39,619 bases of DNA, taken from positions 1 through 39,619 of the forward strand of contig LCQF01000008.1 of assembly GCA_001004005.1 (NCBI GenBank), given 5' to 3'. The notes under the pieces are model-generated. The model had not been told where the DNA came from. It made no database searches and saw only the letters and a list, made by a program, of their open reading frames with translations. Within the stretch, counting starts at the first letter, position 1. Each line of letters begins with the position of its first letter. The position numbers and the translations under genes were made by a program. Of this stretch, positions 1,968 to 21,909 are shown one piece after another. This DNA is from Parcubacteria group bacterium GW2011_GWA2_49_9 (GTDB lineage: Bacteria > Patescibacteriota > Minisyncoccia > Phycocordibacterales > UBA10002).

Positions 1968-2366
1968 TTACAACACACCAACTTGTCCTAACTTCTCCTC
2001 ACCACCGACCGCAAAACCGACCCGAAATCCCTCCAATCCATCGACGCTCGGGATATCGTCAGTCCGCAGGCGTTCCGCGCGCTCACGAAGGAAATCCGGA
2101 ATCAGCACACGTCCGATGGAATCCACCTCCGCTTCCGTCGCGCCGCCGAGCATATAGCGGTTGAAACTTCGCGTATCCGCCTGAAGCATTGATGACTCGC
2201 CAAGCCGCTGTGAAATCTTTTCCCATTGCTTCAGCGTAAAAACGAACAAACATCCATCCAACCCCGGTGTCACCACCACCTTCTTCCCCATCTCGGTACG
2301 GAACTTCGCAGGCAGAGATAATCTGTTCTTGTCATCTATGGTGTGAATGAATTCGCCGATTAGCAT
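1968..2366 (-). CDS. mraZ: Transcriptional regulator/division protein MraZ
   Basis: MLIGEFIHTIDDKNRLSLPAKFR..., first gene of dcw cluster. Confidence 0.95.
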   Translation of the reverse strand: MLIGEFIHTIDDKNRLSLPAKFRTEMGKKVVVTPGLDGCLFVFTLKQWEKISQRLGESSMLQADTRSFNRYMLGGATEAEVDSIGRVLIPDFLRERAERLRTDDIPSVDGLEGFRVGFAVGGEEKLGQVGVL

Positions 2367-5932: not shown

Positions 5933-6181
5933 TCATCGGAGGGCGGGGGCATAGCCAGTGTCAGGCATTACCTGCATCACCACCACTTCCTTTTTGCCTG
6001 TCTTCTGCAACACTTCCGAGAGAGTTTCTCCAACCGCCAACAACTTTTTGTAACTAGGAGAAATAGCAACCCACTTGTTTTCATGGGCTTTCTTGAGAAG
6101 TTTTGAATAACCAAGTTGATTTACCATGTTCGTACTATATCCTATTTTCCACTTTACCGCCACCCTACCATTATCTAACAC
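5933..6181 (-). CDS. Small hypothetical protein (DUF5678-like)
   Basis: ENKWVAISPSYKKLLAVGETLSEVLQKTGKKEVVVMQV pattern. Confidence 0.45.
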   Translation of the reverse strand: MLDNGRVAVKWKIGYSTNMVNQLGYSKLLKKAHENKWVAISPSYKKLLAVGETLSEVLQKTGKKEVVVMQVMPDTGYAPALR

Positions 6182-6231: not shown

Positions 6232-6849
6232 CTACTGCTTGAAAAGTCGGCGTAGGTTAGGGTCTGTAAATTCCTTGACATCTTTATATTCAATCCAGAA
6301 ATCAGTACTTCTACTTTCCCTAACTCTGTTGTGATATAGCCTAGAATATTTTTTGCTGAATATCTCGGCCGCCTTCTTATGCGAAAGGGTAAAAAAGTTT
6401 GTAGTGCCGTGTTTTATCCACGTGTCAACATCAACAAAAACATAAAATAAATTAGAACCATTATCTATATCTATTTCTTTACCTACGATTTGTTTAGAGG
6501 TCTCAGGGTCAACCTCTATTACACAATAGGTCTTTGCTTGCTGTCTCACCCATCTAGGATTTTTGGTTTTATCTTTCACCCTTGTAGCCTTAGCGTTAAG
6601 GTACACGGTCTTCTTACCAAGTGTTAGCGAAATATCCCATCTTTTATTGGCAGAGCCGACATACTGAAATCCATTCGCTGCAAACGAACAAAGTTTAGCC
6701 CCATATGTCTTCAAAAGACGTTCCAGAACTAACAATTCGCCGATAAATCCTCTATCAAACGGCTTGCCGCATAATTTGCTAAATTTTCTGCAGGCGTCTA
6801 GCGTTTTGCGAGTTGAATCCACCCATTTTCTCACTTCTTCTTTTTTCAT
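6232..6849 (-). CDS. Hypothetical protein, possible PD-(D/E)xK nuclease-like fold
   Basis: 205 aa; GFIGELLVLERLLKTYGAKL...KRWDISLTLGKKTVYLNAKATRVK resembles E...D...xAK arrangement. Confidence 0.5.
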   Translation of the reverse strand: MKKEEVRKWVDSTRKTLDACRKFSKLCGKPFDRGFIGELLVLERLLKTYGAKLCSFAANGFQYVGSANKRWDISLTLGKKTVYLNAKATRVKDKTKNPRWVRQQAKTYCVIEVDPETSKQIVGKEIDIDNGSNLFYVFVDVDTWIKHGTTNFFTLSHKKAAEIFSKKYSRLYHNRVRESRSTDFWIEYKDVKEFTDPNLRRLFKQ

Positions 6850-6937: not shown

Positions 6938-8556
6938 CTATAAGCTCGGTCTTAGATATTCTGGCGTGTACACGCTCATCCATTCCAGAAGCTCACGCAT
7001 CACGTAGAGTCCGCCGACAGTATTGTCGTGCGGACCGCGCTCCATAATGACCGCGAAAGCGTAACGGGGCTTTTCGTACGGGAAAAAACCGACCACCCAT
7101 GAATTGACAAATTGTTTGCGCGTACCGAGTTCCGCGGTTCCGGTCTTGGCGGACACGGCCACTTGCGGAATGAAAAGCCCCGCGGCGGTACCGCCTTCCG
7201 TAACAGCATCACGCATTCCCTCCCGCACGATTTGAAATGAAGAGGTTTGTATCGGCAATACGCTATAGGCAGGCGGCACGTCTTTTTCTTCCACCAGCCG
7301 CGGTTCAAGCAGTTTCCCCCCATTTGCCACGGCTGCGATGGCGCGGACAACTTGTAGTGGCGTCACCTGAAAACCATACTGCCCGATGGCGGTGTGGTAT
7401 GTGTTACCGAGTCGCCATCCATCGCCGTTGAAATTCGCCTTTTTCCATTCGGGATTGGGAATGACTCCGGCCTCGCCGAACATATCGCTCCCCGGAGGTA
7501 CCGAACCAAATCCGAACATCCGCATGTATTTTTCAATAGTCGCGATACCAAGTCCTTTCTGGTCCTCAAATCCACCTCCGATTTCGTAGAAATAGACGTC
7601 GGAGGACACGGCGAGCGCTCGCCGCATATCCACCGCGCCGTGCGCCTTCCAGTCGTTGAATATTGTCGGCTTTTTCGGGTCAAACGGATTCGGCACGGAG
7701 AGAGAGCCTGTACTCACAATCGTCTTTTCGGGCGAAATGATTTTTTCTTCTCCGTACCATCGGTAAGCGCCTGCGAATCGTATTCGGGAAAACTAGCCAT
7801 TGAAAGTAAGTCCCCGTTCTCTACATCCATAAGTACCGCGGCACCACCCTGAAAGCCACGGTCTTTGGCCAGCTGCTCTATAAATCCGTAGAGCTTGTCC
7901 TGCAGCCGCGCGTCAATCGTGAGCGTCACACTCTCGCCATCCCTAGGGGGTTTGAGCACACTCTCAGACTGTACCTTGCCGTGCGCGTCGGTCTCCACGA
8001 TTTTGAGGCCATGCTGAGGAGTGATGTATTCGTTGTAATATTTTTCCACGCCGTCGCGGCCTTCAAAATCCACTTTGTAATAAAACCCCGCCTTGTCCTT
8101 GGTTGGATACTTTAAAAATCCGAGAATATGCGAGAGTCCCGCCTGGTCCAGATACTTCCGCTTTGAAAATTCCGGTTCATCGGTATCAATGATATTCCAC
8201 GCGAGAAACGTCCCTCTTTTGTCGTAGAGGACACCGCGTGAACCGAAGATGAGTGTGTGGCGCAGCCGATTCTGCGCGCTCTGCTTCGCGTACGTTCCGC
8301 CGTCTTGCACCTGTAGCGTATAGGTCTTTCCAAGAAGAAGCAGGAGTATGAGCGTAAAGACAACCCCGACACTCCAGATGATACGCCGTGAAATGGGGCG
8401 CTCCAAGCGCCCTTCAAACTGGTGGCGGTCAAACGCGGGAAGATTCCGCGAGTCAAGAAAAATCTGGTCGGGGTCTATTTCGCGCACCGGCGGATGCGGG
8501 TGCCGTATCTTGTGTAAGAAACGAGTGATAAATCGGAACATAAAGTTAATTATCAA
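6938..8556 (-). pseudogene. mrdA: Penicillin-binding protein 2 (MrdA) split into two ORFs (7714..8556 and 6938..7717)
   Basis: 5' ORF has TM and PBP-dimer domain up to MASFPEYDSQALTDGT; 3' ORF resumes after an unread GEEKIISPEKTI with VSTGSLSVPNPFDPKKPTIFNDWKAHG...SAKTGTAELGT; the SxxK segment between them is absent. Confidence 0.85.
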
Positions 8557-20520: not shown

Positions 20521-21909
20521 ATGTCCATAGCCCGCCTCAAACACATTGGCGCTCTTATCCGCGACCTTAGAGAGGAGCGCGGGCTTTCGCAGTCCGAGTT
20601 CGCGAAGAAGCTGAAAACCAGCCAGAGCGCCATCGCCCGTATAGAACAGGGCGAACAAAACCTCTCCACCGAAACACTCGCGAAAATCAGCACGGCGCTG
20701 AACCGCGACATCCTCCAGCTTTCCGACCGCTCGCTTACTATAGAGATAGAAGGGGGAAGAAAGCTCCGCGGGACCGTCACGACCCATACCTCCAAGAACG
20801 GAGCCGTGGGACTTTTATGTGCTTCACTTCTCAATACCGGCACCACAACACTTCGGAATATGCCTCATATAGAGGAGGTGCATCGGATTATTGAAGTACT
20901 CCAGAGTATCGGCGTATCAGTAAAATGGGAGGGAAATAACGTGGAGATTAAGGTACCCGAAAAGCTGAATGTGTCCGGTATCAATAGTGAATCGGCGACC
21001 AAGACACGGAGTATCGTGATGCTTCTCGCTCCGCTTCTCCACCATCTGAAGGCGTTCAAACTCCCCCACCCCGGCGGATGCCGGCTCGGCGCTCGGAGCG
21101 TCCGTCCACATCTCCTTGCGCTGGAAAAATTCGGCGCTCATATTAAAACTCGCTCCAAAGATTATGTGGTGACGCATAAGGGACTGCGGTGCTTTTTCCT
21201 GCAAGCCCTCGGCGTAGAGATTACGGGGATCGGGACGACGACACTCACGGTCCGTGGTATACCCATAATAGAGAGAAATGTCTCCTACGCTGTCTCGGAA
21301 GACCCCATTGAGGTAATGTTTTTTCTCACTGCCGCGATACTCACCCGCTCGTCTATCCGCATCAACCGCGCCCCAATTGAATTTCTTGAATTGGAACTCT
21401 TGAAGCTTGAGGAGATGGGATTTAAGTATAAAATCCTCAAGCGGTATCTCGCCGAAAACGGCCAGACCAAACTCGTTGATATCCGCACCTACCCGTCCAA
21501 ACTCACTGCTCTGCCGGATAAAATTGAAGCGCGTCCCTACCCCGGACTCAATATAGACAATCTGCCATTCTTTGCCGTTATCGCCACACAGGCCAAGGGC
21601 ACCACGCTGATTCACGATTGGGTGTACGAAAACCGAACCGTATACTACAAAGAACTTGATAAGCTCCGAGCGGAAACACTTCTCGCGGACCCGCACCGTA
21701 TCTATGTCACCGGCCCGACGAAACTCAAGGCCGCCGAAGTGGTCTGCCCGCCGGCACTCCGTCCGGGCGCCATTATCCTCATCGCGATGCTCGGGGCCGA
21801 AGGTACCTCCACGCTTCGCAACATCTACAGCATTAACCGCGGATACGAGGGGATTATCGAACGGCTCAACGCGCTGGGGGCGAGGATAAAGATTTTACGT
21901 TCACTATAA
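20521..21909 (+). CDS. XRE-type HTH fused to MurA-like UDP-GlcNAc 1-carboxyvinyltransferase
   Basis: N-term IGALIRDLREERGLSQSEFAKKLKTSQSAIARIEQG (HTH_3), then TSKNGAVGLLCASLL, PGGCRLGARSVRPHLLALEKFGA, ARPYPGLNIDNLPFFAVIATQAKGTT. Confidence 0.9.
   Translation: MSIARLKHIGALIRDLREERGLSQSEFAKKLKTSQSAIARIEQGEQNLSTETLAKISTALNRDILQLSDRSLTIEIEGGRKLRGTVTTHTSKNGAVGLLCASLLNTGTTTLRNMPHIEEVHRIIEVLQSIGVSVKWEGNNVEIKVPEKLNVSGINSESATKTRSIVMLLAPLLHHLKAFKLPHPGGCRLGARSVRPHLLALEKFGAHIKTRSKDYVVTHKGLRCFFLQALGVEITGIGTTTLTVRGIPIIERNVSYAVSEDPIEVMFFLTAAILTRSSIRINRAPIEFLELELLKLEEMGFKYKILKRYLAENGQTKLVDIRTYPSKLTALPDKIEARPYPGLNIDNLPFFAVIATQAKGTTLIHDWVYENRTVYYKELDKLRAETLLADPHRIYVTGPTKLKAAEVVCPPALRPGAIILIAMLGAEGTSTLRNIYSINRGYEGIIERLNALGARIKILRSL

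Follow-up and report, generated by a model that had tools for sequence, protein, structure and literature searches.

A split penicillin-binding protein 2 gene in a patescibacterial draft genome, most probably a local assembly error

Why does the gene for PBP2 (mrdA), the transpeptidase that accompanies the mre genes, appear in two pieces and without its catalytic nucleophile in the stretch of 39,619 nt analyzed here (the window)? The window belongs to G000, a Taylorbacteria-like patescibacterial draft genome of 44 contigs and 909,954 nt. On its minus strand, mreB (10759-9683), mreC (9717-8890) and a short mreD (8893-8639) are all intact and are followed by PBP2, read as two ORFs. The upstream ORF (8556-7714, minus strand) has the tail ...ALTDGTEKKKSFRPKRRL and ends with ...FPEYDSQALTDGTEKKKSFRPKRRL followed by the stop codon. 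The downstream ORF (7717-6938, minus strand) carries SSD, within ALAVSSDVYFYE, and KTGT, that is, the SxN/SxD and KTG motifs. They overlap as GTGA at 7717-7714. This split had been described in an earlier note, together with the retention of KTGT and the absence of the SxxK segment from both ORFs, and all three points were borne out. MreD is 51 residues shorter than the corresponding ORF of G008, the closest relative of G000. Truncation of mreD was rejected: the short MreD is probably natural, since the additional G008 residues stem from an upstream start codon located within the end of mreC.

TIGR03423 (pbp2_mrdA) is the best NCBIfam match for both PBP2 parts, each scoring under the whole-protein cut-off. 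The N-terminal part (7751..8556, minus strand) comprises the membrane anchor, the dimerization domain (PF03717) and the start of the transpeptidase domain as far as TDGT, and covers TIGR03423 positions 144-283. Its true start is probably the ATG at 8541. The C-terminal part (6938..7750, minus strand) runs from EEKIISPEK to the stop codon; its matches span positions 70-282 of PF00905, the transpeptidase model (299 positions), and 342-581 of TIGR03423. The PBP2/MrdA domain order, dimerization and then transpeptidase, is thus confirmed. The TIGR03423 matches of both halves, the place after mreB-mreC-mreD and the SSD and KTGT motifs are shared with the mreBCD-PBP2 operon of Taylorbacteria-like Patescibacteria, while about 40 residues with SxxK are lacking in the G000 assembly only. 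The frame of the downstream ORF stays open 5′ of its GTG codon, up to ...GEEKIISPEKTIVSTGSL. Judging from the sequence, this GTG start is an accidental by-product of the frameshift, since homology reaches upstream of it to about 7750. Past the junction, the upstream frame continues as a spurious tail to the stop at 7714.

The nucleophile motif (PGSxxKP) is found in neither ORF of the assembled sequence. In the aligned relatives, the interval from FPEY to (I/V)xSTG is of near-constant length and includes PFLNR...GLY(T/A)PGS(I/V)xKP; they have about 40 more residues at the junction, with PGS(I/V)xKP. Frame-aware protein alignment to PBP2 of G008 places the junction near 7751/7750 (7749..7753, minus strand) and gives a loss of 118 nt, i.e. 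39 codons plus 1 nt, PGSxxKP included. In all 12 congeners, one uninterrupted frame of 575-660 codons encodes PBP2, versus 284 codons in G000. A whole-genome search of G000 for the missing segment returned just an FtsI-like paralogue on contig C11. The description of the gene as the only visible PBP2 stands for PBP2 itself, but a second class B PBP (C11, a 588-codon open frame with SIMK and KTGT) and a class A PBP (C23, an 850-codon open frame) exist, as do two RodA/FtsW-family proteins.

Could the two ORFs nevertheless yield a functional protein, whether through coupled translation or a programmed frameshift at the overlap? A GTGA overlap can couple translation. However, the SxxK segment is lacking from the DNA of the locus and, the paralogue aside, from the remainder of the assembly; recoding therefore cannot restore it. 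Moreover, the GTG codon sits inside conserved sequence and none of the 12 congeners shows this arrangement. A genuinely split PBP2 can practically be dismissed.

For both PBP2 halves, comparison with G008 and five other congeners gave dN values of 0.15-0.27; dS was saturated or no lower than 1.4. The halves are under purifying selection and show no sign of decay, a signal that fits an intact PBP2 in the organism. A very recent real loss would look the same.

A comparison of G000 with G008 (851,315 nt compared) was made by tblastn in both directions, with 505 queries (129,282 residues) from G008 to G000 and 550 queries (131,984 residues) from G000 to G008; the queries were mechanical ORFs, so that their numbers are not gene counts. 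An event was counted when two parts of a gene lay in different frames and abutted, with 85-149 nt missing. In G000, this gave at least 14 independent frame-shifting losses over the 129,282 aligned residues; the reverse comparison, over 131,984 residues, yielded no such event. Were both genomes equally prone to these losses, a result of 14 versus 0 would arise with a probability of about 6e-5. Genes named by Pfam or NCBIfam profile matches are those for FBP aldolase (149 nt lost), the gyrase/topoisomerase IV A subunit (gyrA/parC, 104 nt), ribosomal protein S1 (rpsA, 134 nt), RNase Y (130 nt), PBP2 (118 nt), ribosomal protein S4 (rpsD, 127 nt) and FtsH (103 nt). Those named by eye from the sequence are secA, with two losses (104 and 106 nt), and the genes for a large surface protein (133 nt), a TrmB-like regulator (85 nt), an ABC-F ATPase (127 nt), an ATP-grasp protein (106 nt) and RecG (122 nt). 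We excluded from this count an alcohol-dehydrogenase-like gene on C12, whose loss came out at conflicting sizes (121 versus 19 nt). Because gaps that preserve the frame turned up in either direction (12 in G000 versus 36 in G008), they were not taken as evidence at the genome scale. A loss of constant length from a single software step was rejected: the shortest measures 85 nt and the longest 149 nt, and both non-zero remainders occur on division by 3. In the G000 assembly, a frame-shifting micro-deletion thus occurs about once in every 28 kb of the coding sequence compared.

Universal essential genes are among those hit, namely those for S4, SecA, S1, FtsH, the gyrase/topoisomerase IV A subunit, RecG and RNase Y, and a cell without all of them would not survive. 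Two of these genes serve as a control. Among the 13 genomes of the genus, G000 is alone in having rpsD in two pieces, and it has no second copy; the gene is whole in the 12 congeners. The secA gene is in three frames in G000 and in one long open frame in the other congeners, except for the draft G003, which holds just a fragment. No cell is viable with its S4 and SecA genes broken as printed; the assembly must therefore be at fault at those genes, and the PBP2 join matches the rpsD and secA joins in form and size.

These data bear directly on the three options left by the earlier note. A real, recent deletion that inactivated PBP2, the cell managing on the class B PBP of C11 and the class A PBP of C23, would account for the removal of the nucleophile and the shifted frame, as in a null mutation, and further PBPs with transpeptidase domains do exist in G000. 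Yet the same kind of loss affects indispensable genes, all 12 congeners have an unbroken PBP2, and the adjoining mreB, mreC and mreD are intact. Such a deletion is very unlikely because of the genome-wide survey and the broken single-copy essential genes, and it is hardly credible that an elongasome transpeptidase would have lost its catalytic centre with the rest of the mre operon kept. The second option was a mixed population in which intact and deleted PBP2 alleles coexist, the assembler having taken the deleted path. Strain variation commonly breaks paths when metagenomes are assembled. However, this scenario needs deletion alleles as the consensus at 14 or more loci, rpsD and secA among them, and is accordingly most improbable; strain variation without deletion alleles amounts to an assembly error, and a strain mixture may have been the trigger of the bad joins.

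The remaining option, an assembly or collapse error, is the one favored by the survey and the broken essential genes: the split PBP2 very probably reflects a local assembly error and not biology. As expected for such an error, the defect repeats across G000, indispensable genes included. The living organism very probably has one continuous PBP2 of about 580 codons. The missing PBP2 segment, its size, the genome-wide recurrence and the broken essential single-copy genes are directly observed; that the fault lies with the assembler or scaffolder and not in the DNA, and the manner of the join, is what we infer. Two contigs or graph paths flanking an unresolved stretch of about 100-150 nt would have been joined directly, which would drop the 118 nt with the SxxK codons and shift the PBP2 frame. 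Systematic local mis-assembly of this type, in collapsed contig or scaffold joins, would also be behind at least 13 other losses in G000. Five G000 contigs contain runs of N, of 25-154 nt, and G000 was therefore scaffolded. It is very probably a short-read metagenome assembly; the metagenomic origin is deduced from the fact that almost all its relatives are MAGs of Taylorbacteria, Zambryskibacteria and similar groups. The varying lengths of the losses (85-149 nt) and the lack of a repeat that would explain the PBP2 join count against an artefact. Such a repeat was looked for at the join and none was found, and repeat-driven collapse there was rejected.

In MAGs, protein-coding sequences can be incomplete or incorrect because of local assembly errors and scaffolding gaps, and IDBA-UD assemblies are suspected to be the most prone to the former (Chen et al. 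2020, Genome Res. 30:315, PMC7111523). The errors reported there for CPR/Patescibacteria MAGs are, like those proposed for G000, short and local, and yield incomplete or incorrect genes. The frequency is of the same order, with 13 local assembly errors in one 1.13-Mb CPR genome versus at least 14 frame-shifting ones in the 910 kb of G000. In that study, however, errors were identified by a lack of read support, whereas the G000 losses are inferred from comparison with a relative. The split PBP2 would be without biological weight, and claims of missing domains or split genes from G000 should await a check of the reads. The estimate of 92% completeness and 1.4% contamination does not expose assembly errors of this kind.

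Several further observations were made in the window and beyond. Between PBP2 and greA, the minus strand encodes a 205-aa protein without Pfam match (6232-6849) and an 82-aa DUF5678 protein (5933-6181); the G008 ORFs of this region match neither. In mraZ (1992-2366, minus strand), the first 98 residues share 97% identity with G008; the next stretch, of about 25 residues, is unlike that of the five other congeners, after which EKLGQVGVL and the stop codon are back in frame. This odd 84-nt segment, which has no other copy in G000, is possibly a scrambled local assembly. The murA-like gene (20533..21906, plus strand) encodes an N-terminal helix-turn-helix and a UDP-GlcNAc carboxyvinyltransferase; the N-terminal Cro/C1-type domain is also present in the G008 homologue. 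Compared with G008, the one congener used here, the product lacks 42 aa near 21190 without a change of frame, probably through a second event of the same kind in the window. Elsewhere in G000, in-frame gaps with well-conserved flanks are candidates for in-frame losses of this kind: 37 aa in an RpoC-looking protein (C4:21679), 48 aa in an FtsZ-like GTPase (C42:4494) and 30 aa in a DNA ligase-looking protein (C26:12558).
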